The notes under the pieces: generated by a model | Databases searched by the model: none | What the model was told of the DNA's origin: nothing | Seen by the model: only the letters and a program-made list of their open reading frames with translations | Shown: piece after piece, positions 2,364 to 57,400 of the stretch | Position numbering within the stretch: the stretch's first letter is position 1 | Layout of the letters: each line of letters begins with the position of its first letter | Program-made: the position numbers and the translations under genes | Source: Chondrosia reniformis | Taxonomy: Eukaryota > Porifera > Demospongiae > Chondrillida > Chondrillidae | DNA: 64,000 nt | Assembly: GCA_947172415.1 (NCBI GenBank) | Contig: OX359189.1 | Coordinates: forward strand, 5,594,501 to 5,658,500 | Direction: 5' to 3'

Positions 2364-5300
2364 ATGAAAAGGGTTATCCCCAAGATGGAAGCGGTTGCTG
2401 CTACAAAGGCCCGACAGTATCATAATCTGCTGCAGAAACATGCCGCATTAAAATTTACAGCGCACCCAAAATCTTTCAGTAATGCAGTAAGTGTCTTTAG
2501 TCTCTTCTTCATCCCTATGCACCTCTTCCAATCTTTATTACTGTATTGCAGAAGACCTCTAATATGTCGTTGGACGAGGCCTCTGAGTACTTTGACAGGA
2601 TATCAGCGGAGCTTCCTGGATACGCACAGGTGCTTCGTGATATTAAAGTGAGTCCTTTTAATCGTATTGCTGGTGATGGATTTTGCGGCGGAGGGGGCTG
2701 AAGTACCTACATCAACGTAAAGGAAAAATATCGATTATCGGTCTGCTATAATCGGAGTACAATTTTCACAGGCACTATGATGTACTTCTGTTTCTTTGAA
2801 TGTTATATAATAGTTTATGATACTATAAAGGTTCATTGCTGCGTAGTTATGTTGATGAGTAAGTGGTGATTCTTGGAGCATATTGCAGCAGGGAAACTTT
2901 CAAGTTCAATGAATTTAAAAATTACAAGATGTTTCGATGCGTAGATCTTCATCAGTTGTAAACAAAACATACAGGTGAAGTGCAACTGTTTATATACAAG
3001 AATAGGTGTGAATTACAAAAAGTGACGTAATAAAGGATTAGTGCCGTAATAAGGGGAGGGATGATAATAATACTGAGAGGAAGAGTCAGTGTGGGTTACT
3101 GCAGCCAACTCCCACTTTACCTGGTGTCTGGTGTCCCATGCGTGGACTACAGTGAGTGCAACCACGTGTACATTGGGGAAAACAGGGAGGACTTAAGAGA
3201 AGCGATTGTATGAACACAGGGCTGCAGTGAAGAAGAATGATTGGAAGTATAGCAATCCACGCATGGGACACCGGACACCAGGTGAAGTAAGAGTCGGCTG
3301 CAGTAAAGGAGGTCAAATCCAACCTTACACACAGGAGGATAATGGAAGCCCTCCACATCCAGAAGCCACCACATACCATGAACCTGGACTGACTGTGGTC
3401 TCACTGTTGATCCTGTCTGTTCCCCCTCCTGACCCACACTGACTCTTCCTCTTAGTATTATTATCATCCCTCCCCCTATTACGGCACTAATTCTTTATTA
3501 CATCACTTTTCGTAATTCACACCTATTCTTGTATATAAACAGTTGTACTTCACCTGTATGTTTTGTTTACAATTGATGAAGATCTACGGATTGAAAAGTC
3601 TTGTAATTTTTAAATTGATTGAACTTGAAAGTTTCCCTGCTGCAATATGCTCCATGAATCACCCCCTATTTATCATAATAGTTTATTTCTCGAGAATGTA
3701 CGTATTAAAACCAAGGGTTGACATTTCCACAGTTGTGGAATGACCGCTTTAATCACCTTGTTAAGACACCTTATTTTATTTTCCTTCAACTTTAGAGTGA
3801 ATATGATCAAAAAGTTATGTCTAAGTTGACACAGGCTGGTAATGAATCTGTAGATCAAAGTATTAGTGATGTTAATAACAGCTATGGGACAATACTGAAA
3901 GAGGCTAGAGCAGTTAAAGATTTGGAGGAAAGGATTTTGCAAATGGTAACAGAAAATGAGCAGTAAGTGAGGCAAATTAGGTTTCTTTTCAGTTTTTAAT
4001 CAAGATAACCAACCACTTCAGCTATTTAATCTAAAAAGATACGATAATTCAATATTGAGCATCCTTTAGCCCATTAATTTCATACCTGTTAAAGAAATCC
4101 TCTAGATTTAGATTGAATTAGATATAAGAGAGATTTGGATTAAGATACAATATTCTTCTTTGTTCCACTGGACCAGACAATTGTTTTTGGAAGTACTCAT
4201 CTACATCAATGGCCTGGAATTAAGTTTCTCTTTGAATCCTGTATTCATGTTCATGTAATAGTGTTTTTAGAAACATTAAAATTATGGTTTTTGGCTTACA
4301 TGATCAACTTGATGTAATATAATATAAAGGAAATGGCGTATGACAAATAGCATTATGAAACTATGCTTAAACAGTTATACAACATAAATTTACTGGATAT
4401 GCAAGATGGAAACAAAACAGACCTACACAATAGTATACAGATATTAAAGTATTCTAACAATTCTAATATAATTGCAGATTCCTAAAAGCATGCGAGTACA
4501 GTAAGTGGTGACCATTGTTTAAGTAAATTGGACTATGTAAATATATATAGTTACAGTACAATCCTGAACTCATGAAAAATCTAATGCACCATTTCCTACA
4601 TGCTATGTGTACTCTGTAAAAAGCCTAAACCTAGTGTGAGCTTTGGATGAAGATACAGGTCCTGGAGGCTTTTCTTTTCTTTCTTCTTCCTCCCCACTGG
4701 GCCCTGTATGATTGTACTGTTTGTATTAGCTGAGTGTGGAGCACTAATTATGCTGAAAATATGAACTAACATATTATTTATTCTGTCAGATTTCTTAATA
4801 GAAAACATTTTTATTATTGTATCTAGCTTAAAGAATGAAATTTGTGAAGAAGAGGAGGAATTAAGAAAAATGCAGTCTTCCAGTAGTGAAACAGATAGCA
4901 CAGAGAGTCTTTCTAAAGGTGAATATTAATTATGGAGCCATTCTGTACACAAGTTATCTTAAACATGGTCAATAGATTTTCTTGTCTTTATCTTATCTCT
5001 GCTTGCAAGCTTCTTTAGGAAGAAGTGAAGACAAGTATATTGCAAGAGTGCATGAACTACAGTTAGAGGTACAATGAAGTGATAGGGTTTATTTGCCGCG
5101 ATCATGATGATATATGAAGTTTATTGAGCAACAGCAATATTACTGATGAAGACCTACGGGTTGAAACGTTCTATTCCAAAGATTTAATGTTGCTGTTGCT
5201 CAATAAACTTCATATATCAGTTAGAGGTGCATACACTATTGATACAAATGGGAGAATAGTATTAACTATGTATATGGACTCCTGGTTAAGAACCTGTTCA

Positions 5301-10400: not shown

Positions 10401-11440
10401 AGGTATCTTCTTTTATAGGCATCATTTTCCACCATTTCAATTCAAGGATTCTTTAAATTTTATAAATATTCTTTTACTTTTACATATATAAATGTGACTT
10501 AAAGCTATACCTTGTTAAAACACAGGTGTGTACAATCCACCATTTGATGGTTTATACAAGCCCATATTCTACCCACCGGTGGTGTTGGTGTGCATTGGTC
10601 ACGTGATTCAGTAGTCATGCCACCTGTGACATCACGCTCCGAAGCCTTAAAACAAACGATCCCTGTTCCTCTTCTGCTATCGCGCCTGTTAGTGCTCTCT
10701 CATATGGTTGAACTGTCCCAAGGTATGAACTGTCTTGAATGGTGTAGTGTAATTTGTGACGGAGCTCAGTAGAGTCGAACTGTATTGTACCCTCCTTCAG
10801 TTTGAGTTCAATCCCGCCTTACCCCTCCAGATGAAGTTCAGTGGAGTCAAAATGTCTAGTTTTAGTTAGATCCTGTTGAACTTCCTTTAGACGGAGTAGA
10901 GTCGAACGGTACTGAACTCTCCATCATAGTAGTGTTAGTATTTATAAGGTAAATGTACCTAATTTCGGACACTTTAATTCTTAAAATAATTGCTTGCCCT
11001 TTAACGACCATAAGGCACATTTGTGGTTTGGCCCGTAAAAGACCGCCATGTTAAATAATCGTAGGATCTTTTTGAAATTTACTTAAATCGATAGCACTTA
11101 ATAAGCTACATCTAAAATGTTATAGGTTTCTATTGCAGTATAACTGTATTAAGAAGAAAAAGATTACATATGGCAGGTATATATATTATGCAAGCATTAA
11201 CTAAAAAACTCATAGTTTACTGAGCATTTTCAAAGTTATACCGAATATATAAAAATGGCCGTCTAAACGAGGAATTATTTTCTTGTTCGTTTTTTAGTTG
11301 TTTGGCAATTATTGGCTTTATAAACTTCAGGGTAGGTAGTTACTCAGGCGTGTTAAGGACAGGCACCCGTGATTGCGTAATTATTTAGTCCATATTTCTA
11401 TTTCCTAAATGTAGGCTTCTTTAACCATTGTAGGAAAATG
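10401..11440. other. No gene recognised
   Basis: Around 10750-10920 there are imperfect recurrences of TAGAGTCGAACTGTACTGAACTC. Nothing else stands out. Confidence 0.35.
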
Positions 11441-16649: not shown

Positions 16650-16985
16650 TTAAGTGCAAGGAACATCTACATCCACCTATATATATATACGTAGCTATAA
16701 ATCATCAGCTTCCTGAATAGGTCATTGTTCCTCCCTGACAACTTAAATTTGAAACAATTAATGATATATGTGCACATGAGAAAGACTATATATAATAGTC
16801 TCTGCTCATCTCCAATGTTGACTTGTTCAGTAGGTCAATATGGTTCAACTCATGAACATATATACACACCTAAAATACTCATCTTAACATCCATGCACAT
16901 TCATGCATGCACAGATTCCCATATAGAGCTGTAAGTCAAAAAAATAAACAATTAAGTGAAATATCTGCATGGCATACCTTGTATA
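16650..16985 (+). repeat. Direct repeat D, copy 1
   Basis: About 330 bp starting TTAAGTGCAAGGAACATCTAC, matched at 20683-21012 with only small differences. Both copies start with TTAA. In the second copy this is the piggyBac target site, so copy 1 resembles the empty site. Confidence 0.75.
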
Positions 16986-17130
16986 TAAGGCCCCTAGATT
17001 TAGCATGGAGAGCCAAGGATTCACAGAAGATCAAGATAATCCAAAGCTCTCTTCAGGTTAAGTTCCTTTATAGGCTCTTTTACAGAATAGGCATAGCATG
17101 TAGGAAAATGGTATCTTAGATTTTTCATGT
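16980..17130 (+). repeat. Shortened copy of the 19.5-kb Penelope-like 3' end
   Basis: Matches 19478-19738 (TAAGGCCCCTAGATTTAGCA, then AGGCTCTTTTACAGAATAGG) with part of the middle missing. Confidence 0.65.
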
Positions 17131-17209
17131 GTTTACTTAGCCTCATGTTAGTCCCTGGTGGCTGTTGAGCCATTGTTGCCTTTAAATAGTCCCGGCTACA
17201 TGTAATAGG

Positions 17210-18976
17210 TTAAGTCTTTGTGGACTAGCTTGTCAAGTCCTTGACCCATTTCCAATCATGACTATTACAAATATTGCCCAGCAGACCAATCTACATGCCT
17301 CCCAAAAACCTCCCAGTGACAGTTACAAATGGTAAACACTAATGAAGAGGAACTTGGTCTATTCCTTGGCATGTTAATTGCTATGTGAATACACCAATTG
17401 CCATCTTTAGAAGACTACTGGTCTACTGATCCTCTTTTAGGTGTACCACGAATAACTGCTGGCATGTCATATAAAAGATTTCGAGCTATACGTAGCAGCC
17501 TCCACATAAACGACAACACCACTGCAGTAGGTAGGGACCAGTCTAGATTTGATCGTCTCCATAAAGTACGCCCATTACTTAAAATAGTTAACCAAAATTG
17601 CCTTCACACATACAACCCTGGTCAGAATTGTAGCATAGATTAAGCCATGGTGGCTTTCAAAGGGCGGAGTAGCCTGAAGCAGTGCATTCCATTGAAGCCT
17701 ACGAAAAGGGGCTTCAAAGTGTGGACCCTGTGTGACTCTGCAAATGGCTACATTTCTAATTTTCAGGTGTACACTGGTGCACAGGGTAGTTCCCCAGAAT
17801 ACAGTCTTGGGGGCAAGTGGTAAAAACACTTGCTCAGCCCTTTTTAGACAAGAATTACAACCTCTTCTTTGACAATTATTTTTCTAGTGTAGAATTATTA
17901 TCTTTCTTGTCTTCTCACAACACCTACTGTATCACTACAACACAAACAAAAAGGAAGCAGTGGCCATAAGATTTAAACGTCAAAGAATTGAAGGATATTA
18001 TGTCTCGGAGAAAAAGCCATTCTGTAATTGTCCAGACATCAAATGGCACAGATGTACAGTGCCTATTGTGGATGGACAAGAAATGTGTTCCCTTTGTTAA
18101 TACACTTACGGATCCATCCTCCTCAGCCACAGTAGTAAGAAAGAATAAGGATGGCACTAGAGTGGATGTAGATTGCCCAATGGCAGTCAAGCTCTACCAT
18201 AAATTCATGGGAGGTGTTGATTTGGCAGACCAGCGGCGTAAAACCTACACAACAAGTAGGAAGTCCATAAAATGGTGGATGCCAATCTTTCATTATCTTG
18301 TCGATATATCATTAGTAAATGGCTACATTTTGTACAAAGACAACAACCCCAACCAAACCAAGAAGCTTACCCAAAAGGAATTCCATTTGGAGGTAGGCAA
18401 GGAGCTTCTATCACAGCATTCTTCACGTAAAAGGTCATCACTTCCTACTACCGATGCCCCTCCATCATCACGTTACTGTGAAAAGCACTTCCCAAGTAGA
18501 GGAGTTACAGAACGCCAATGCAAAATTTGCCGAAAGAATGATCGCAGGAAACATACGATTTTCTGTTGTAAATCGTGTTCTTCTGACACTGATATACACC
18601 TCTGCCCAACAACTTGCTTTGAAGAGTTCCATACGTTGAAGAAATGAAGATAACATTGAAGAAACGCTAAAAAATAAACTGAACACTTTCATACACTTTC
18701 CGGTATCCATTTTATTACTATCATAACTAATTATTTTAGTGCATTTTTGTGTAAACAATTCCGCATTCCTTCGAATATCTTAGTATTTCTGTATTAAGTT
18801 TCTCTCTATAACTTTTTTAATATATATTGTAACGGGCTGTAACTTTAATAATAAATTTCTAATGTTAGGTAGACGATATAATATACGAATTTTTACAGAA
18901 ATTGGAAAGAAAATGGTGGACACGAAAGTCTCTCCTTAAGAGCCACTTTTCTGGCTTATGACAGTCAAAGGGTTAA
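17210..18976 (+). mobile_element. piggyBac element PB1
   Basis: Transposase followed by a 3' end reaching TTAA at 18973-18976 through a subterminal GAGCCACTTTTCTGGCTTATG palindrome. The left terminus was not identified. It lies against the Penelope-like frame starting at 18958-18980. Confidence 0.7.
17275..18647 (+). pseudogene. piggyBac transposase (PB1), degraded
   Basis: The family order is intact: NEEELGLFLGMLIA, LPSLEDYWSTDPLLGVPRI, MSYKRFRAIRSSLHINDN, SIDxAMVAFKGRSSLKQCIP, NLFFDNYFSSVELL, CLLWMDKKCVPFVNTL, MAVKLYHKFMGGVDLADQR, then a C-terminal Cys-rich domain (CKICRKND, CCKSC). In-frame stops interrupt it before LPSLEDY, at the SID/AMVAF junction and after the QVYTGAQG segment, so it cannot make a full protein. 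The last open block (17988-18647) covers the third catalytic region, the GVDLADQ motif and the zinc-binding tail. A full piggyBac transposase is about 590 residues; about 450 are represented here. Confidence 0.85.
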
Positions 18977-19605
18977 CAAGCTCCCCATCATTAGGTAAAG
19001 GTAGGATGCCTGGTGATGAAAAGTTAGCTAACTCTCCCCCATCTGTAGGTAGAGGGGTGCCTACTGGTGGGCAAGCTAGCCCCTCACTAGTTAGGAAGTG
19101 TAGCAGTAAGCGGTGTAAAACATGTCCCCTTTTAGTTACTGGCCCTACTTTTAAGAGTTCAGTTACTGGCAGGACCTATCAAGTCCATAGCCCTTGTGGT
19201 CCCCTAGGATGTCAGAGTAGGAATGTTGTGTATCTTATTACTTGTAAAAAATGTGATGTACAGTATGTAGGAGAAACCTCTCAAATGCTTAGGAGTAGAA
19301 TGAACAACCATAGGACTAGTACCAAAGGTTTTAAGCCACTGTATCTCTACAGTCACTTTAATTCTGATAACCATAGTTTTAATGATGCCTTGATTATGCC
19401 CATAGAACAGATACTAGAGACTCCTAATTCTTCTAGCCTCAGACTACTGAGAGAAGCGTTCTGGCACCAAAATAGTGTATATAAAGCCCCTAGATTTAGC
19501 ATGGAGAGCCAAGGATTCACAGAAGATCAATATAAAGAAAAAGACAGACTCCCAGGATCACTGATGAAGGGTGGAATTCCCAGAAACGGCTGTCTGACCC
19601 AGTGA
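18958..19605 (+). CDS. GIY-YIG endonuclease domain of a Penelope-like element
   Basis: An open frame of about 210 residues. A Cys cluster (CSSKRCKTCPLL) precedes the GIY-YIG core: NVVYLITCKKCDVQYVGE, then TSQMLRSRMNNHR, HFNSDNHSFND and a C-terminal LREAFWHQ helix. This arrangement (zinc knuckle then GIY-YIG) is known from Penelope-like elements of the Neptune/Nematis type. The preceding reverse transcriptase is not present next to it; piggyBac PB1 lies immediately upstream. The first 20 residues may be piggyBac end sequence. It is an isolated C-terminal piece. Confidence 0.75.
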   Translation: MTVKGLTSSPSLGKGRMPGDEKLANSPPSVGRGVPTGGQASPSLVRKCSSKRCKTCPLLVTGPTFKSSVTGRTYQVHSPCGPLGCQSRNVVYLITCKKCDVQYVGETSQMLRSRMNNHRTSTKGFKPLYLYSHFNSDNHSFNDALIMPIEQILETPNSSSLRLLREAFWHQNSVYKAPRFSMESQGFTEDQYKEKDRLPGSLMKGGIPRNGCLTQ

Positions 19606-19734
19606 AGAAGATGAAAGAAGGGAAAAGAAGGAAGAAAAGACTCCTGTATCTTCATCCAAAGCTAGTTCCCCTATAGGCTCTTTTACAGAATAGGCATAGC
19701 ATGTAGGAAAATGGTATCTTAGATTTTTCTTGTG

Positions 19735-46257: not shown

Positions 46258-47543
46258 TCATTGACTGATTTTTCAAATTTTTCCATCCTAACCTCCATTA
46301 GAACAGTATAGGCAATTATATTGTACTGACTATATTTGCTAGCTTTTCTAATATCGTATACAACGATAATTATTTGCTTTAGTTTTTTGCTGTTCTTCCA
46401 ACAAAATTGGCCTCCATCGTTTAGTTGGCAGCCTTTCCAAAGTATCAAACAGTCTGTAATCGGAAGTCCGCCTTCGTAGTGATGCAAAGTCAAGTAAAAA
46501 GGTTCTATTCGACTGTTTTGTGCCACAGGGACATTCCAGGATTCAGTATAAAGAATGTAAATGATAATATTTCAGTATGCACGAAAGGAGTCAAAACACT
46601 TCTTACCTTCCCGGCTCCAAAGGTATTCTCTCTAATGAGAGCCCAACCAACGTTTGTACGTCTACTGTACATAACGTCAGATTATGATCTTCTGTAATTA
46701 AGTGAGTTCTCGGCGGCCAACTGTCAGGTTGCAGATATCTTCCCAAAGCAATCATAATATTGAGGTCTATAATCAATTAAAAGGAGAGCTTAGGAGGTAA
46801 CCACACGACAAAACTAAGCTGTTTACGAAATTACAAAATACAAAGCTTTTATTATGTCACACCCATAGGAGGCTTGGTATTTATATTGTAAAGAATGCAT
46901 GCGAATCTGATACTTTGTGTTGCCATTCCGGTCTGATTGCCAATGTTTGCACGTGTGCAGCACTATTTTATAACGTGTTTGTTATCAATTGGAAGTCACC
47001 TTCTTGCCTTTTATATGGCGATGTAAGCGTAATAAGGGATACTCATTGTACCAATACTCCTCAGAAAAACTGAATTTGGAATTTTTTTAGTACTTGATTT
47101 TCTTTCAATTTCCAACTTCTCCTAGTCTGTGGCTTGGGCGTCTTGACGACTCACGAGATGCACATATCCTTCACATTTGCAGTTCACAAGTGGTTTGTTG
47201 TGGGCCAAGCCTGTATGGACGTGTTGCATAACTGTCTGGGTTGGGTCGACTATAACTATTGTAATTTAGGTCACTGAAGGAATTACAATTTTCAGCTATA
47301 TGTTGTATATATAGGGTTGTATGATATTCTTGCATATTGTACCTATTACATATCTGTGGGACATTGTAAAGTCTATAAAAAGGCTGAATCTGTCATGCAC
47401 GTGTGAATAGGTATATAAAGGTGTAAACGACGGCTTCATTGTAAAAATAAAGTTGACAGTGACCCTTATAAAATTTACGTAAAAAGGTAACTCATTTTCA
47501 GTACTTGTCAGGCGTACATATGTTCAAACATCTTCTCTAACCA
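46258..47543. other. No gene recognised
   Basis: Nothing supported apart from AT-rich sequence. Confidence 0.35.
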
Positions 47544-47615
47544 CCCAATTCCTAAGACAAGTCTGTTAGTGACTTGTTTCGCCCAATACCAGGGAGCTCA
47601 TCAGCTAGGATTGGG
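47544..47615 (-). ncRNA. Type I hammerhead ribozyme (HHR-2)
   Basis: Read on the minus strand. Helix I is CCUAG/UUAGG, then a bulged A, then CCCAAU/AUUGGG. The core is CUGAUGA. Helix II is GCUC-loop-GGGC with loop CCUGGUAUU. GAA follows. Helix III is ACAAGUC/GACUUGU, 7 bp, with a 7-nt loop. The cleavage site is UC, so all catalytic-core residues of the family are present. It should cut after the C that follows helix III. The flanking sequence is shared with HHR-3. Confidence 0.88.
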
Positions 47616-48344
47616 TGAATAAGATAAAAGGGTGTGATCCTCACACTAAATTGACGGTTTGACCATGATATTACAGTGTGACCCGCACACAAATGGATGG
47701 TGTGAGTGTCATTTAGTATGAGTCTCACCCCAAATTTTTAACAGTGATGGAACAGGACAAAGAGGAACGGGATTGGATGGGGACCATTCTTTACAGCAAA
47801 AGAAGGTCCTTTTTCAATCAGGACAAATACAGCAGTGTCCCCTTTTCTCCTGACATTTTGGAAAATGCCGTTCTAGTAGTCTTGCTGTTGTAGGTGGATT
47901 GCTGAAGTATGCAGGCCGTTTCCTTGGGTTATGGCAGGACATGAGCTGGCTAGATGCTCTGCTTCACATAACAATTCCTTCTATGAAAAGTATTTACAGC
48001 AGCAACTTGTTTCAGCTGACTCCATGCATGCATTTGGAAATGTTCTAACTTAGATAGGAGATTGCCTTCCAAGAGATGTTGTTGAGGATCTCAAACTTCT
48101 TGTTCTTGCAATTGCCGTAACCATTGGAAGTTCAACTGGCCATGCAATAGCCATATTTGGATTAGAGTCATACTTAAATAATCTTCTCACTGGTAATACC
48201 CTTTTTAAATGCTGTAACTTCTTTTGCAGTAGTCTCTTACATTTTAGTTGTGCAAGGGTGTTTTGGTGGTGATAACCTGGCATTCTGAATGAGTAAAAAG
48301 AAGTATATAAGCTTTAATGCTTGAATCTTCAACATCTTATCAGG
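47616..48344. other. No gene; repeat flank of HHR-2
   Basis: The first 140 bp has alternating GTGTGA/TCACAC words. A weak open stretch lies at 48050-48190 (VVEDLKLLVLAIAVTIGSST); no family recognised. Confidence 0.35.
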
Positions 48345-48400
48345 GAGTATGGTAGTACTCCCTATGTAGGGATGACACTTTTTTCGTTTTCCCCATACAT
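48345..48400. repeat. Dispersed repeat R1, short end
   Basis: GTATGGTAGTACTCCCTATG then TAGGGATGACA. Confidence 0.5.
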
Positions 48401-48655
48401 CGGTATAGGAGCAAAATCCTGAAATAGGCCGAAAATCGATAAAACAAGGCTATGTATAGCTAAATATACAATATACATACTGTAAATAGACCTTAAAGGT
48501 AAGGGAATATGTCCAGCTGGCGAAATAATAAACTTTAAAAATGTATTAAAGTCAATCATTACAACTACAGATGACAAACTACATATTTCATTATAATACT
48601 ATAGTACTAATTAATCCATATGTAGGCCTATACGTATTGATACTCCTTTATATAT

Positions 48656-50110
48656 TGCCAAAAAAGCCATGTGCATTTAATATGCCAAAAATCATCTTCT
48701 CTTTGAATACATCATAGTCTTTATGCAATGACAGCCGTACTACTAGTGCACATGTGGATGCAGTTGGGAAACTGCCACCTTCATGCAGAAATTAAAGCCT
48801 TCCCTCCTTCTCAAAACCAAGAGGAGGGATGGATGCAGCTCCAGTAGCAAAGGCCAGGATATCGGATAGTGTTATGCATGTTGGCTCTCCACCAATTTCA
48901 GTTATTGAAAGGTTGCCTTTCTCAACATCCCTCAGGAAATAGCTCCAATGCAGAGCTATCTCCTCCTCTATATCTGCGATTTGAGCAATCTGTAGAAAAA
49001 CTGGGAGGAAAGAGTGCTTTAACCTGAGAAGCTGTGAGAATGGGGTTATCTTTCTCACAGAAAAGGCCCAACAATTTGCTAGCCTCATCATTTGTCCAAA
49101 TCATACCCGCAAACTCTCTAAACCCTCTCTCATCTGGTCCAATTCTGCCTTTAAAGCATACACTGTGAAATGAAGGGCAAGCCTGCACACAATTTCATCC
49201 CTGCAAAAAAGGCTGAGTGAGAAAGTGGGCTTGCTATACCCACACTCAAATCTAAAGTCATAATCCTCTGATGTGAAGAGGGTCTGCAGTTCTTCAGTGG
49301 TGGTGACCTCAGCAATCTACATATATTAACAGTCATGGTGTGAAGAAAAGTTGCCAAACTGTCCTATATGTATACAGTGAATACATAACCAAACAACTAG
49401 CATTGGCTATATTGCAAATGTGCATATATTATATATTTTACATACCTTCTGGACTTTTGCTTGTCCTTCAGAATCTGGAATATCACATATTCTAGGCTGC
49501 AAGCCATCAATGCCATAGACTGGGTAGTGGGCAATGGTAGGAGCTAAAAAGCAAGGAGGGGTTCCACCTGTAGGATAGATAAAGCAAAAAATCTGCCTAT
49601 ATCCTGATACTCTTTATTGCAAAGGAGATGCACATTGTGGGTAGGAACCCGTGCATTCCCTTGACCCTGAAAGAGTGAACTGTTGTTACAGATCTCTTGC
49701 ATCCCCCACCGAAAGTATTCCCTTCTTGGACCTCCATCATCCACAGCTGCCTCCCCTATAAACTCAACTTGTAGCCATTTTTTTGTTGTGAAATCTTGCT
49801 GTCTGAAAGCTCGTAAGGTATCTTTCCATATTTTCTTTCTTCTCATTTGAATTTTTACGGTGGAATCTCCCAACTGATGGTTCTCTGGAATTTGTTGTCG
49901 AATACGCATTTGGTGAATAATAGTTCCAGTGACCTATATAATACATGCAGGCATTATTTAATGGCTATATATTCTGGTTATATATGTATATCCTTACTTT
50001 CTATTCTGCTGCTGCTGCATATCTGTGAGAAGGCTATTTTCACATGCCTTTTGCAATGCAACATCCTTAATATTTAGGTCACTGTCTGATTGGTCACTGG
50101 CTGAACTATG
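48656..50110 (-). pseudogene. UIM-HECT ubiquitin-ligase-like gene, copy 1
   Basis: From high to low coordinates. The first exon (about 50110-49997) holds a ubiquitin-interacting-motif-like helix, DVALQKACENSLLTD. Another exon (about 49909-49565) has IWKDTLRAFRQQDFTTKKWL, DDGGPRREYFRWGM and DIGRFFALSIL, the HECT N-lobe. Exons between about 49320 and 48656 have FATGAASIPPLGF and the C-lobe end SFPTASTCALVV, with the catalytic Cys, closing in GILNAHGFFGNI-stop. HECT ligases form a Cys-ubiquitin thioester, and the UIM would bind ubiquitin. An in-frame stop (GRL-stop-FLHEGG) and a shift near 49000 mark it as broken. It resembles G2E3-like HECT genes that are multicopy in invertebrates. Confidence 0.75.
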
Positions 50111-50182
50111 ACAACGGTAGAGGCAATAAAATGCAAACCATTTAACTGAGCTACTGGTGAATAAAATTATTTTCATGTGAAA

Positions 50183-50452
50183 TTACCTGGCATACAGGGT
50201 TTTATCTCGTACATTTGTTGTATGGATTATAGTTTCTACAGTATGTCCTGCTTCTAACGTTTTCTGTTGTAGAAAAACTGTGCAGTTGTTGTAAACAACC
50301 ACTTCAACTGACACTACTGGAGCATTGGTTTTAGGAGCTGTGAAGTTCAATTTCAATGTCAATACGATAGCAGCTATACTGAAGAGTAGCGTTAAGCACA
50401 AGATTGGTTGTGTGTTTAAATTTATTCCTACTATGCATGAGAAAGTCGACAT
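50183..50452 (-). other. Possible upstream exon of HECT copy 1
   Basis: The open stretch contains APVVSVEVVVYNNCTVFLQQ then KTLEAGHTVETIIHTT. It has suitable position and strand, but the splice sites were not resolved. Confidence 0.35.
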
Positions 50453-50496
50453 CTTATATGTATATACAATCAGAATTTATCGTCTGTCCTTTAATA

Positions 50497-50728
50497 GCTT
50501 AGAGGTCATGTACCCCATTACACACACACTAATCTCAATTTCTCTGTCACCCTAGACAAAGAAACAAAACTTGTAAATAGAAAGGTCAATTGATTATAAA
50601 TCAGTCAACAAGCCATTTAAATAACAAACCTTTCTATTAACAGGTTTTGTTTCTTTGTCTAGGGTGACAGAGAAATTGAGATTAGTGTGTATAATACAAC
50701 TTGTTTATGGGGTTCATGACCTCTAAGC
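50497..50728. repeat. Palindromic foldback repeat
   Basis: Arms of about 90 bp: GCTTAGAGGTCATGTACCCC inward to AAAGAAACAAAAC, and the inverse. The loop is under 60 bp. No coding sequence. It may be a MITE. Confidence 0.75.
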
Positions 50729-51054
50729 ATATAGGAAAGCCCTTCAACGGAAGTCACGTGTTCTGGAACGTATCTGTCATTCGTGTGTCTATATATGAAG
50801 TAAATGACCTTTTTATCAATGCTAGAACTGGACGTGTTTTATATAGTAAAGAACGCGTATGAATTAGTACGCTTTATGCTGCCATCGGCAAAAAGTATTA
50901 GTGTCATTTTTAAGAGTTAACCTAGTACAGCTTGTAGTTTTTTATGATCGTGAATGTGCAGAAATGGGTTCTAATCCAGGAAAAAATCGTCCTCCGAACT
51001 TTATCTGAGAAGAAGACTGTACTTCTTCGTCGCAAGGTAAATATATGATTCTTA
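50729..51054. other. No gene recognised
   Basis: Nothing beyond a short open stretch, MGSNPGKNRPPNFI, at 50964. Confidence 0.3.
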
Positions 51055-51056
51055 TA

Positions 51057-51517
51057 CAGTGGAACACGTTTATAACGAACACGGATTTAACGAAATTTCG
51101 GTTGTAACCAAACGTTTGGAAAAAACGGTTTTAAACAACATAAAACCTTCGGTTTATAACAAATTTTAGGGGCGAATCTTGGAAACGTTTATAACAAAGC
51201 TTTCCTGGTCTGGTGTTTTGATAAGTTTTTGTGAATGAAGTGTTTACGCATGGTGGGTATAATGAATTCGATGTTTACAGTCCTGCATGACATTCCATAA
51301 CTTGAAAATCACGCGATCGTGTATAATTTATTTTGATGTCAATGTACTACAAAAAAAACGAACAAACGACTTAGAGGTATAGACATTCCATCTATAATTT
51401 ACCGTGACGAGTATGGATACGATGCGTGCCTGAAAACGTATCTTTTTTATAACGTCATTCGGTTATAACGAAATAAATTTATACTGCAATTTGAAGTTCG
51501 TTATCCGTGCTCCACTG
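51057..51517. mobile_element. pogo/Tigger-like MITE
   Basis: A 461-bp element with ends CAGTGGAACACGTTTATAAC and CAGTGGAGCACGGATAACGA (inverted), flanked by TA on both sides. The ends and the TATAACGAA motifs match the pogo/Tigger type. Non-coding. Confidence 0.85.
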
Positions 51518-51656
51518 TATCTGAATTTGGATGTTGACGACGTTCAAGCAGCCTGAAACTGTTCTAAGTTTATTAGCATCATAATATTATATTATTATGC
51601 ATGTTTTGGTTATAAGCTTTTTAAACAGTACCCAAATTCTCTGGTCAGCACAGTAC

Positions 51657-51720
51657 ACCACACTGACGAGGACCAAGAAGTCTGAAACAACTGACATCAT
51701 TTGGATCAGTTGTCTGTGGT
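51657..51720 (+). ncRNA. Type I hammerhead ribozyme (HHR-1)
   Basis: Helix I is ACCACA (51657-51662) with UGUGGU (51715-51720). The core CUGACGA is at 51663-51669. Helix II is GGAC-CAAGAA-GUCU (51670-51683). GAA is at 51684-51686. Helix III is ACAACUGA (51687-51694) with UCAGUUGU (51706-51713), 8 bp, loop 11 nt. The cleavage C is at 51714. Helix I can continue past an internal loop through CAG/CUG. Every invariant position of the hammerhead consensus (CUGANGA, GAA, UH) is met. Confidence 0.9.
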
Positions 51721-51839
51721 TCTGCGCGCTTGTCAACCAGTATATGCACTTTGTGGCATTAAACTAAGGGTATATATGAAGTACGTATATCAACAATTAC
51801 TCAGTGACATGTATGCGTATATGTATGTTAGCTCCACTT

Positions 51840-51890
51840 CCTAGGACAGGTTCTACCTGTTTCGCCCAATGCCAGGGCTCATCAGCTAGG
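51840..51890 (-). ncRNA. Type I hammerhead ribozyme (HHR-3)
   Basis: Minus strand. Helix I is CCUAG/CUAGG; the core is CUGAUGA. Helix II is GCCC-UGGCAUU-GGGC; GAA follows. Helix III is ACAGGU-AGA-ACCUGU and the cleavage site is UC. All base pairs are Watson-Crick. Helix II loop and flanks resemble HHR-2. It faces HHR-1, which lies 120 bp away on the other strand. Confidence 0.9.
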
Positions 51891-52685
51891 ATGGGATGTA
51901 CAGGAATCATGTCACCAGCAAATTATAACCTGGGAGTGATGATTTCAAGCGCATTGTATAGTGAGCAGTGGTTGTAACACACCAGCTTTAAACCCACCAT
52001 CGGTGGGTTTAATGAACGGTGTATATAACCCCCAAATTGGTGTATAATATACACCAGTGTTTTAACAGTGTGGGTAGGTTGAGGACAGGTCTAATAGAAG
52101 GGCCTGGAGAAGATCTGAACCTTCGGGATGGAGGCATAGTGTCTGACTGATTAATTGTTTCCTATGGCAGGGAAAGGAGCATGCATAAGAATGGTCATAA
52201 TGATGTCATAATATTTGCACATTCATATATATATATACCTCTTGTTCTTCTTCCTTGGTCAGATCAATCTCTTTGTCACTATCAGAATTATATTCTCATT
52301 GTAGTTTAGCAAGATCAGCCTGTTCTGAATATAGAGACAACCCTGTCCACTAAGCTTTACTACTTCCTTTACTGTCCATGTAAATGAAGAGGATGCAGTA
52401 GGCACTGTCAAGGACTTAGTTCCTCCTCCTCCTCCAATTTAAAGGAAATAAAAAGGAAAGTTGTTGCCTTGGCACATTGCTTTTTGAAATGTTAATCTGT
52501 GATTAATTCTCTCAACTGGTTGTGGTCCATATAGAATGATACTTCAATATTCCAGAATGCCTTGTCAAAAAGGTGATTCAGTGGATGACCAGTGGAAGCC
52601 ACATGTGCACCACAGGGAACTGAGCATGCTCAAAAGAGTCATTGCATTAAGTGATATTTCAATATTGATGATGTCGTTCATATAT
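51891..52685. other. No gene; hairpin-rich flank
   Basis: At 51980-52080 lie AAACCCACCATCGGTGGGTTT and GGTGTATAATATACACC palindromes. No gene. Confidence 0.4.
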
Positions 52686-52687
52686 AT

Positions 52688-53012
52688 GATATCAAGCTAT
52701 GATTTGGCTATCAGGCTATGATATGGCTATCAGGCTATGATATGGATATCAGGCTATGATATGGATATCAGGCTATGATATGGATATCAGGCTATGATAT
52801 GGATATCAGGCTATGATATGGCTATCAGGCTATGATATGGCTATCAGGCTATGATATGGCTATCAGGCTATGATATGGCTATCAGGCTATGATATGGCTA
52901 TCAGGCTATGATATGGCTATCAGGCTATGATATGGCTATCAGGCTATGATATGGATATCAGGATATGATATGGATATATATCAAGTCATCATATGGATAT
53001 CAGGCTATGATA
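52688..53012. repeat. 19-bp satellite array
   Basis: About 15-16 tandem copies of AGGCTATGATATGGCTATC, with a GGATATC variant grouped in the first and last copies. The array is nearly perfect until about 52965, then decays. It lies about 260 bp before the DDE transposase start. Confidence 0.95.
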
Positions 53013-53268
53013 TCCTTAACAGACAAAACTTGTAATGTTGACACATTTGGCACCCCATACATTATATCCATATAATGACCCTTATATCTATATAATGATT
53101 ATAATATCCATATAATTATTATAATATCCAAATAATTACAATCATATCAACATCAAGATTTATTATATGCATAATTGATGATTGATAATTGTATGGATGT
53201 CATGTACCTCATACTGACAATCTCCACTGAGCATGCTCATTGAAGTGTGTTTATTACTTGAGTTTAAA

Positions 53269-54567
53269 ATGGCTGGTCGACCACCCAAAGAAGTAGACAT
53301 GGAAAAAGTGAAACATCTGCTAGCTTTAGACTTTCAGTTGGATGAAATAGCTACTATAATGGAAATTAGCAGGTCAACCCTCTTCAGGTGCTTGAAAGAT
53401 TCTGAAATTGAGAAATACAGTGACATTTTTGATACAGACCTAGATAGCACTATTCGAAGGATCAAGCTTGACCACCCCAATGATGGTGAAATTGTAATGC
53501 AAGCCCACTTATTGAGAGTTAGCATTCATGTCCAGCGCCAAAGGCTGCGACTTTCTGTTCGTCGAGTTGACCAAACGAACACCTCCTTACGACGGGCTAC
53601 AACGGTGAGAAGGGGGGTATACCATGTGAATGGACCAAACTGTGTGTGGCATATTGACGGTAACCACAAATTAATTCGTTGGCGTTTAGTGATACATGGA
53701 GGTGTAGATGGTTATAGCCAAATGATCGTATACCTGCAATGTTCCACTAATAACACTGCAGCCACAGTCCTTGGCAAGTTCATAGATGTTGTTCAGCAGT
53801 ATGGGCTGCCAGACAAAGTACGTACAGATCTTGGAGGTGAGAATGTGGATGTTTGGCAGCTGATGAGCAATGCACACCAGTCTTCTTCAGCAGTTATTAC
53901 TGGCAGCTCCACTCATAATGAGAGAATTGAGCGTTTGTGGAATGATGTGCGGCGGTCAGTATCTGAAGAATTTCGATGTTTATTCTATCAGCTAGAACGC
54001 GAAGGATTATTGAACCCCCTTAATGAAACTGACATGTATTGCTTGCAGTATATTTTTGTGCCCCGAATAAATAAGGTTCTGAGTGAGTTTATGGTTGCAT
54101 GGAACAACCACAAATTATCTACCGAGAATAACAAAACTCCCAATCAGCTATTTTTAAGGGGACTACTATCATCTACTCCAAGAAACATTCCTGGACCAAT
54201 GCTGCTTCCTACACCAGAAGCATCACAGCTGGGTAGTACTACACGTACAACTACCTCAAGTCCAACTGGCCAAACATCATCACCTTTGCCATTAGTATCA
54301 GGTCATATTAATGTGCCACGGAGTAGTTTCAAGCCATATGGTATCTTAGAGCAAGCACTGCAGATGCAAATTCACCCTATGGGTGAATCAAGAAACTATG
54401 GTCAAGACATTTATCTTAATGCTTTGCTGGTTGTGTGCAATCATTTACAAAGCCACCCAAATTGTGGATGCATGTTGAACTCAGAAATATTTGCATACAT
54501 GTCCTTTTTCACACTTAAATTGCAAACAATATTATGTAGTACAACAAATGATATATCCCAAGGGTGA
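53269..54567 (+). CDS. DDE integrase-core transposase (IS3EU/Ginger-like)
   Basis: An open frame of 432 residues from ATG 53269; an in-frame Met at 53233 would add 12. Residues about 10-45 form a helix-turn-helix (DEIATIMEISRSTLFRCLKD). The catalytic core has VWHIDGNHKLIRWRLVIHGG with the first Asp, DKVRTDLGGENV with the second, and HNERIERLWNDVRRS with the Glu. The segments FVPRINKVLSEFMVAWNNHK and NKTPNQLFLRGL follow. The tail is Thr/Ser/Pro-rich. No stop interrupts the core, so it may be active. Superfamily assignment is uncertain. The 3' end faces the HECT-like gene 65 bp away, and the two may form one mobile unit. Ends and target duplication were not found. Confidence 0.8.
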   Translation: MAGRPPKEVDMEKVKHLLALDFQLDEIATIMEISRSTLFRCLKDSEIEKYSDIFDTDLDSTIRRIKLDHPNDGEIVMQAHLLRVSIHVQRQRLRLSVRRVDQTNTSLRRATTVRRGVYHVNGPNCVWHIDGNHKLIRWRLVIHGGVDGYSQMIVYLQCSTNNTAATVLGKFIDVVQQYGLPDKVRTDLGGENVDVWQLMSNAHQSSSAVITGSSTHNERIERLWNDVRRSVSEEFRCLFYQLEREGLLNPLNETDMYCLQYIFVPRINKVLSEFMVAWNNHKLSTENNKTPNQLFLRGLLSSTPRNIPGPMLLPTPEASQLGSTTRTTTSSPTGQTSSPLPLVSGHINVPRSSFKPYGILEQALQMQIHPMGESRNYGQDIYLNALLVVCNHLQSHPNCGCMLNSEIFAYMSFFTLKLQTILCSTTNDISQG

Positions 54568-54632
54568 GTAGAAGTAAACACGGTATATAGTTATTGTACA
54601 ACTGTAACACAAACATGTTCTGGTAACATGTA

Positions 54633-56303
54633 CTACACATTTCCAAAGAAGCCATGAGCATTAAGAATGCCAAATGCCATTTTGGTTTTAAACATCTCAT
54701 AATCCCTGTGTGTATAGGTAAACATACTTGCAAAGCACAAGTGGATGCTGTAGGGAGCATCCATCCGTTGTGCAGAAAGGTGATGGTACCTTGTCGCTCA
54801 AACACCAAAATTGGAAAGGATGTTGCACCTGTAGCAAAAGCAGGAATGTCTTCCAATGAAAGTGCTACCTGTGCTTCACTGTCCACAGTAACAGTGCCTT
54901 CCTCAACATCACTGAGGAAGTAGTTCCAGTGAAGGAGCATCTCCTCTTCCACATCACTTCTATTTGATCCTGGTGCAGAGAGGATAGGGCTGAACAACAT
55001 ATGAACAGCTCTTGCAGTTAAAGTCCCACTTGTTGGAACAAACAACCTTTTCAAGCTGTTGGCTTCATCCTCTGTCCAGAATAGGCCTCCAAGCTTCAGC
55101 CCCTCACAAATCTTGTCCAGTTCTGCCTTGTTTGAGTAAATTATGAGGTGTAGTGCAAGGCATAGCACAATTTCATCTATATTAGAGGTCATTAAGTTTG
55201 CAACTGGTTTAGTACAACCACAGGCAAAGCGAAAATCATAGTCATCCTCCGACAAGTAGGCTTGGAGCTCTTGGGTAGACTGAACCTCTTTAATCTGTGT
55301 ATTTTAAGACATTGACACAGCATGTGAAACATGTCATGTTGTTCTCAAGAGATGATATTGTTGCACACAGAAAGTATATTTATTGTGACTTGCATGGGCA
55401 GATCAAATCTTTCTACATTAGGTATATATTGGCTAACAAAACACCTTGGAACATAGGCACCCCATATGTACAAAGTAGCTGTTTCATGAGTGATACACTT
55501 TTTCTAATAGGTCATGCAATAGATGAGCCGCAATTGATCCACCTGTACATACAAGTCACAATAAACCACTTAAAGTATAGGTTATAGGAGTGCCTTATGT
55601 GATTTATGTATTTTTGTGAATGTATATATGTGTCTTTTGAACTTTAACTCAGACTTTACTGTCTGGGATTTCTGAAATTTCTGGCTGCAATCCCTCGTCA
55701 CCAAATAGAAGGTAATAGGCAATGGTTGAAGAAAGGAATTGTGGAGCTGGCCCTCTCTGCAGGATGGACATTGCAAAGAATCTGCCTACCTCCCGATATT
55801 CCTTGTTGCTGAGCAAATGTAAGTTGTGCACGGGAATACGTTTGTCAAGTACACCTTGAAAGAGGGCATTATTATGGCACAATTCATGCATCCCAAGACG
55901 AAAGTATTCTCTTCTGGGACCCCCATCATCAATGGCTGATTCTCTGACAAACTCAATCTTGAGCCATTTTCTTGTCGTAAATCTGGGCTGCTTAAATGCT
56001 CGCAGGGAGTCTTTCCATATATGCTTTCTCCTAACTTGGATGCATATTGTGGAATCTTCAGATGTGACACTGAACTCTGGCAAGTGATTCTGACGTGTTT
56101 GGCCTATGAATGCTTCAATAGATGTATAAATTTGGTAGAAAAAGACTATTGCCTATTTGTTACCATTCTTTATGCTGTGAAATATATATGTACATGGTTG
56201 AATGTACTTACGGCCCTTGTGCCTCTTTCAGGAGGCTATTCTCGACTGCCTTTTGCAAGCATACATCATTGTCACTGTCTAGACTGTCCGATTCAGGATC
56301 ACT
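54633..56303 (-). pseudogene. UIM-HECT ubiquitin-ligase-like gene, copy 2
   Basis: The first exon (about 56303-56212) has acidic SDPESDSLDSDNDV then a UIM-like VCLQKAVENSLLKE. The second exon (about 56087-55650) has HIWKDSLRAFKQPRFTTRKW, IDDGGPRREYFRLGM and VGRFFAMSILQRGPAPQFL. The third (about 55290-54633) has FACGCTKPVANLMTSNI, GLFWTEDEANSLKRLF, FATGATSFPILVF and the catalytic segment LPTASTCALQVCLP. The last 25 codons are in a shifted frame (RDYEMFKTKMAFGILNAHGF, stop at 54633), so this copy is broken close to its end or spliced there. It is the partner of copy 1 and converges on the DDE transposase. Confidence 0.75.
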
Positions 56304-56389
56304 GCAAGATATGACAATCATTTCACATTTCTTAATTATTTCTATACATTCAGACATCTTTGTTGTATATATATGATGCGGTTTGTAGA

Positions 56390-57400
56390 CTGACCTATAA
56401 TGCAGACGCTCTGTCCAAGATTCCCTGTCGTCAGTGTGGATGTGAGTCTCATGATATCCCCACTGTTTCTGTAGTGCAGACAGGTAGTCATGCTAATAGC
56501 CTGTCAGGATCAAGTAAAGAAGAAGTCAGCCAGCTTCAGCTGGCTGATGATACCGTGGGACCGGTACTTTCAGCCAAGAGAGAAGGGAGGAGATCATAAG
56601 TCAGAGTAGACATTGCTGTCAACTGTTTGAGCAATGGGACCAACTACAGGTCAAGAACAACTGTTTGTTCCGCCGGTTTGAGGATAATAGTGGAAACACT
56701 AGCTTGTTACAGCTGGTATGCGAACTGAGACCTTAAAGCAACTGTATGAAGGAGTTATGGGTGGTCACCTTGGGACAGAGAAGGCTCAGGGAACGGTTCC
56801 ATTGGCCATGACATACACAAGATGTCAAGGATTGGTGTTGTTCATGCCCTTTGTGTGCCACTAGAAAAACCCCAGCTCCTAAAGGGAAAGCCCCACTTAA
56901 GTCAGTTAGAGCAGATTATCCCATGCAGTTAGTTGCCGTCGATATTCTAGGGCCACTCCCCGAGAGTGAGAATGGCAATAGCTATATCTTAGTTGCTGGA
57001 GATTACTTTACCAGATGGATGGAAGCATATCCCATTCCAAATCAGGAAGCCACTACTGTTGCCAGGAAGCTAACAGAAGAAATGTTTCTGAGGTTTTCAC
57101 CACCAGAACAACTGCACTCTGACCAGGGTCGACAGTTTGAATCCAAGCTTGTTGGGGAAATCTGCAAGCTTCTTGGTATTGTCAAGTCAAGGACCACACC
57201 CTACCATCCACAAGGTAATGGCCTTGTTGAACGCTTCAACCATACCTTAGTTGACATGCTATCAACTGTCTCTAAGGACCATCCGTTTTTGTGGGAAAAT
57301 CACATAAGAGCTGTGTGCATGGCATATAACACCAGTGTACAAGCGTCTACCGGGTTTTCCCTAATTCTTTTTGATGTTTGGACGTCAAGCCAGGTTACCA
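56390..57400 (+). mobile_element. Fossil Ty3/Gypsy integrase piece
   Basis: ADALSKIPCR marks the RNase H end. A worn zinc-binding HHCC region and the integrase core follow: VAVDILGPLPESENGNSYIL, ARKLTEEMFLRFSPPEQLHS and NGLVERFNHTLVDML. Typical Ty3/Gypsy order. The remaining parts and LTRs were not found; old and broken. Confidence 0.9.

Follow-up and report, generated by a model that had tools for sequence, protein, structure and literature searches.

Solitary type I hammerhead motifs with a long helix III in a sponge genome and their probable relation to a Penelope-like minimal hammerhead

Hammerhead ribozymes cleave RNA to leave a 2',3'-cyclic phosphate and a 5'-OH, and those of Penelope-like elements were reportedly described by Cervera and de la Pena in 2014. 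HH10/RECK is an amniote intronic type I hammerhead. Published accounts describe Penelope hammerheads as minimal motifs without helix III that may cleave as dimers and whose role is unknown (PMC7761336, PMC6155905), attribute monomer cleavage in invertebrate retrozymes to a stable helix III (PMC7761336, PMC7229834), count minimal hammerheads in the non-coding DNA of animals in the thousands (PMC7761336), and place solitary conserved amniote hammerheads in or near genes, thought to have been domesticated from retroelements (PMC6155905, PMC3088659). Among the matches listed in the literature searched, none concerned sponge hammerheads by its title. In this report we focus on two hammerhead motifs, HHR-2 and HHR-3, on the minus strand of a 64,000-nucleotide stretch of the sponge Chondrosia reniformis (contig OX359189.1, positions 5,594,501 to 5,658,500; hereafter the window, whose own numbering is used throughout). 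We conclude, with a probability of about 0.6, that they are solitary hammerheads related to, and most likely descended from, a Penelope-like minimal hammerhead in the same genome, represented by a motif at 19.5 kb.

Comparison with described systems highlights both similarities and differences. HHR-2 and HHR-3 show a sequence relation to a Penelope hammerhead, since their core, loop II and outer helix I match the 19.5 kb motif, which lies at the end of an open reading frame (ORF) with a GIY-YIG domain and a putative Penelope label. Unlike Penelope hammerheads, they have a helix III of 7 bp (HHR-2) or 6 bp (HHR-3) instead of a minimal or absent one, no detected element flanks, and no pseudo-long terminal repeat (pseudo-LTR) location when 17.5-21.5 kb is compared with their flanks by BLASTN. 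Like the amniote intronic type I hammerheads (HH9, RF02275), they are solitary, of type I and near genes. HH9 and HH10 have a conserved location in an intron; HHR-2 and HHR-3, judged from DNA alone, follow HECT-like exons of their own strand, and HHR-2 gives HH9 only a sub-gathering match (20.2 bits, E = 0.27, against a gathering score of 52). Like the non-LTR retrozymes of animals, they are of type I and set in animal-like, G+C-poor DNA, with the stable helix III of invertebrate retrozymes, but the tandem repeats of ~150-400 bp with one hammerhead each that are typical of retrozymes were not seen around either motif. Like the hammerhead in the 3' untranslated region of rodent Clec2, they lie downstream of a coding region, but they are compact, whereas the Clec2 hammerhead has a very large helix I (PMC6155905).

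The hammerhead motifs themselves are real. A scan of the window for the core plus helices I, II and III of at least 4, 3 and 4 bp returned three matches—HHR-1, HHR-2 and HHR-3—as did stricter limits of 5, 4 and 6 bp, while the scan found none in 300 dinucleotide shuffles on both strands; the bare core pattern matched 18 times against 4.2 expected, mostly without helices. This confirms the preliminary description of this DNA, which had placed a hammerhead at 47544-47615 (here 47544-47616, minus strand) and related it to HHR-3 (here 51833-51897, minus strand). Both motifs combine CUGANGA and GAAA with three helices and a UH cleavage site, helices II and III being closed by loops and helix I open, as in type I, and cleavage is predicted 3' of the C at 47556 in HHR-2 and 51845 in HHR-3 (51714 in HHR-1). 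Folding z-scores are -3.49 for HHR-2, -2.02 for HHR-3 and -1.43 for HHR-1, and the minimum-energy fold is essentially the hammerhead only for HHR-3. Nowhere in the window is the gathering score of an Rfam family reached (this score is a threshold for curation and not a functional feature), and a search of 46500-53000 gave sub-threshold hammerhead matches for all three motifs (20.2-25.7 bits, E 0.038-0.27), HHR-3 matching Hammerhead_3 (25.7 bits, E = 0.038). It is very improbable that HHR-2 and HHR-3 are chance or decayed, inactive motifs, alike only because hammerhead cores look alike: such a view is consistent with the missing gathering scores and with a rival fold of HHR-2, but is at odds with the 0 of 300 shuffles and with the compensated base pairs described next. 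A fourth candidate from a looser scan, at 53951-54069, was dropped because its helix III has only 1 bp.

HHR-2 and HHR-3 are identical in 54 of 65 aligned columns. The common loop II and helix I of the preliminary description largely stand: both motifs have the loop II sequence UGGYAUU, closed by CCC/GGG, and the same inner helix I apart from one G-U/G-C pair. Helix III is indeed paired in both, but its description as different in sequence was overstated, since one compensated pair (A-U/G-C) and one extra pair in HHR-2 distinguish the arms, which agree in the remaining five pairs. Outer helix I has another compensated pair (C-G/U-A), and two pairs that are possible there in HHR-2 are broken in HHR-3. 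In the shared structure 39/39 cells are paired, with two pairs changed on both sides plus the G-U/G-C pair, and pairing falls to 18-51% when partners are slid by 1-3 columns. In a permutation test, the 11 substitutions were placed randomly on non-core columns and we asked how often compensated pairs and pairing were at least those observed; this gave p = 0.0005 for the shared structure (19/19 pairs), which was picked to fit both sequences, and p = 0.012 with the two broken helix I pairs of HHR-3 counted as well (19/21 pairs). A shuffle control on the alignment (143/500) has little power with two sequences. These findings support a single family in which the sequence changed but the fold seems to have been conserved. 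The earlier proposal that compensation points to selection on the RNA fold was therefore in the right direction, with a strength that is modest from this pair alone.

The relative at 19.5 kb strengthens the family reading of these sequences. A covariance model built from HHR-2 and HHR-3 (R1), run unfiltered over the window, returned both by construction. The 19.5 kb motif ranked next (25.0 bits, E = 1.1e-4), followed by HHR-1 (15.7 bits, E = 0.06), and no other match exceeded 11.9 bits. The motif, found by R1 only, had been missed by the relaxed core-plus-helices scan on account of its helix thresholds, and was aligned to HHR-2 and HHR-3 with the register set by the core. For comparison, 19 non-stem positions were taken from loop II and outer helix I; at these the motif equals HHR-3 at 16 and HHR-2 at 12 (HHR-2 and HHR-3 agree at 14) and HHR-1 at 4 of 18-19; 16/19 agreement was reached by 1 of 2,000,000 random draws. 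Seven of the 12 stem pairs are changed on both sides relative to HHR-3, three are the same and two are broken in the 19.5 kb copy, with stem shuffling giving p = 0.00015 for pairing as good and p = 0.011 for seven two-sided changes. Taken as a whole, these comparisons give the strongest indication that it was the fold, and not the sequence itself, that was conserved. HHR-1 was rejected as a family member and is treated as independent because of its R1 E-value and a loop II unrelated to that of HHR-3. HHR-1 and HHR-3, 106 nt apart, occupy opposite strands, so that RNA from either strand could be self-cutting.

The 19.5 kb ORF would be a fragment of a Penelope-like element, to judge from its GIY-YIG domain and its hammerhead; it gave nothing above cut-off in NCBIfam and no useful match in PDB. 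The position of the motif at the ORF end fits published Penelope hammerheads (PMC6155905, PMC7761336, PMC11167929). Hammerhead-coding overlap has a precedent in a lizard Penelope element, although at the start of its ORF, which begins inside the hammerhead, and not at the end; in that element, hammerhead activity was lost by C3 or G8 changes (PMC11167929). Further fragments resembling the 3' region of the GIY-YIG element are at 16980-17131 (+), without the hammerhead-bearing stretch, and at 4571-4688 (-).

Several points weigh against descent from a Penelope-type hammerhead. First, as to the comparison itself, the 19 positions were picked after the match was seen; over all 39 non-core positions, stems included, 18/39 agree, as do 1006 of 500,000 random sites; the R1 score comes partly from the universal core, with HHR-1 as sole hammerhead control; and the 19.5 kb motif was aligned to neither HHR-2 nor HHR-3 by BLASTN or a plain pairwise aligner. 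Second, as to the element, the BLASTN comparison of 17.5-21.5 kb with the flanks found no similarity to it beside HHR-2 or HHR-3, no reverse transcriptase domain was found in its ORF, the Penelope label coming from the GIY-YIG match, and the direction of change is unrooted. Third, as to folding, the full hammerhead is less stable than the minimum-energy fold in HHR-2 (-19.6 vs -24.5 kcal/mol) and HHR-3 (-21.2 vs -22.8 kcal/mol), and the 19.5 kb motif is no better folded than shuffles (181/200 as good), its fold not being a hammerhead.

If HHR-2 and HHR-3 do descend from a Penelope-type hammerhead, they would have retained the catalytic core, outer helix I and the terminal loop II, exchanged most stem pairs for other pairs, and extended helix III from 2 bp to 6-7 bp. 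Transcripts of the minus strand would be expected to fold into the ribozyme and self-cleave 3' of GUC (at 47556 and 51845), with the 2',3'-cyclic phosphate and 5'-OH of hammerhead chemistry as the resulting ends. With so long a helix III, each motif would be expected to act as a monomer, unlike Penelope hammerheads. A genome with both a Penelope-type hammerhead and related stand-alone, long-helix-III hammerheads would be a concrete intermediate, and the dimer-to-monomer step would become testable by swapping one helix.

Table 1. Coordinates of hammerhead motifs and other features in the window
Feature	Position	Strand	Remarks
HHR-2	47544-47616	-	type I-topology hammerhead; helix III 7 bp, 7-nt loop
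HHR-3	51833-51897	-	type I-topology hammerhead; helix III 6 bp, 3-nt loop
HHR-1	51651-51726	+	separate hammerhead, opposite strand to HHR-3; helix III 8 bp
Minimal hammerhead (19.5 kb)	19549-19606	+	overlaps last codons of GIY-YIG ORF; helix III 2 bp, 4-nt loop
ORF fragment with GIY-YIG endonuclease domain	18940-19605	+	PF01541, E = 4.1e-5, above cut-off
HECT-like paralogue A	54633-56270	-	limits from similarity to B and by eye
HECT-like paralogue B	48648-50068	-	pseudogene-like; outer limits by eye
Integrase-core ORF, transposon-like	53218-54567	+	PF24764, E = 8e-77; between paralogue A and HHR-3
Separate repeat	51995-52067	-	copy at 10513-10584 (+), 77% identity; in the flank of the supposed unit

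The preliminary description also placed both ribozymes in a dispersed unit of about 200 bp with related flanks (47616-47760 and 51890-52080) and could not assign it to an element class. The relatedness of the flanks was not borne out, which leaves the unit unproven: outside the ribozyme, no BLASTN match between the loci is longer than 11 bases; the upstream flanks are not significantly related, 62/500 (global) and 24/500 (local) shuffles reaching the observed score, or 126, 365 and 137 of 2000 for longer upstream flanks under three scorings; and for the downstream flanks 104/500 and 40/500 do so. The element class is partly resolved, in that the ribozyme appears related to a Penelope-like one, with no similarity outside it. 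R1 found no match up to E = 10 near the 10513-10584 copy of the separate repeat. No tandem dimers were seen in the window; among direct repeats of at least 9 nt, no target duplication was found at HHR-2 and one 9-mer pair, not convincing, at HHR-3; and no convincing inverted ends were found around the units or the integrase insertion.

These results bear on a retrozyme-like interpretation, in which each hammerhead ends a small non-autonomous retroelement of ~200-240 bp that moves by way of a circular RNA intermediate, like those of coral, mussel and axolotl. We hold this to be unlikely, though not negligible. The size range and animal-like host suit retrozymes (PMC7229834), and retrozymes of invertebrates are reported to contain monomer-cleaving type I hammerheads in which helix III is stable (PMC7761336). 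The loci also have in common an 11-mer 130-173 nt upstream of the ribozyme, which is the main flank anchor, and nine nucleotides at the HHR-3 cleavage site (51843-51851 and 52082-52090) recur 239 nt away, as a retrozyme monomer predicts, where a partial second hammerhead is matched by 37/2000 shuffles. However, this repeat is not seen at HHR-2, where the corresponding figure is 1696/2000. For units of ~200-240 nt around HHR-2 and HHR-3, folding is more stable than in shuffles (z of -4.25 and -3.01), but these units include the ribozymes.

HHR-2 lies ~1.03 kb downstream of the end of one HECT-like paralogue (B) and HHR-3 ~2.74 kb downstream of the end of the other (A). The last exon of A matches Pfam HECT below cut-off (E = 0.001), its first large exon has HECT ligases, RSP5 among them, as PDB matches (E = 7e-4), the other two ORFs scanned have no Pfam match, and the HECT-like ORF gave nothing above cut-off in NCBIfam; in the tblastn alignment, B is interrupted by two in-frame stops and a change of frame. 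When 46800-50500 was compared with 51000-56400 (one strand, E up to 0.1), six blocks aligned: four are in tblastn-matched exons or reach the stop codon, a fifth (50022-50068) reads by eye as an upstream exon, and the sixth is the ribozyme, 87% identical over 46 bp against 68-79% in the coding blocks. That the ribozyme is the only clearly non-coding aligned block would fit selection after a duplication common to both loci, or an insertion that comprised hardly more than the ribozyme, both readings resting on two loci.

A gene-linked inheritance, in which a hammerhead downstream of an ancestral HECT-like gene was duplicated with it and selected, perhaps for 3' end processing, is compatible with a Penelope origin but seems to us doubtful. 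It would account for the location of both ribozymes (2/2) on the coding strand downstream of tandem paralogues, and for five coding or apparently coding blocks being joined by the ribozyme alone. On the other hand, there are two loci only and their distances differ, the intervening transposon near HHR-3 has no mapped ends, and a hammerhead, HHR-1, sits on the opposite strand beside HHR-3. A working gene that needs the ribozyme is also disfavoured because paralogue B looks like a pseudogene. More speculative, and quite improbable, is the fuller scenario that a dimer-dependent retroelement hammerhead became a monomer by rebuilding helix III, was caught beside a HECT-like ubiquitin-ligase gene, and was retained by the host for RNA processing when that locus was duplicated in tandem long ago, the opposing hammerhead limiting antisense transcripts.

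Searches beyond the window covered collections of viruses and prokaryotes, so zero matches say little about a eukaryotic family. DNA-pattern searches for ribozyme copies returned no stretch from genome_contigs and, from viral_contigs, a single one, which we took as a chance match, without stems and at 6.0 bits with R1. Protein searches of viral_contigs returned six stretches for the HECT-like ORF and 11 for the GIY-YIG ORF, none confirmed.

Other elements lie near the ribozymes. An element of ~480 bp at 51048-51526, with 21-nt inverted ends that are 86% complementary, is presumably pogo/Tigger-like, and a long imperfect palindrome at 50497-50728 is probably a fold-back element; sub-threshold Rfam microRNA matches near 50.5 kb were put down to this palindrome. 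Finally, a 19-bp tandem repeat of 16.8 copies at 52690-53013 adjoins the integrase ORF and is flanked by a 12-nt palindrome, at 52621 and 53228.
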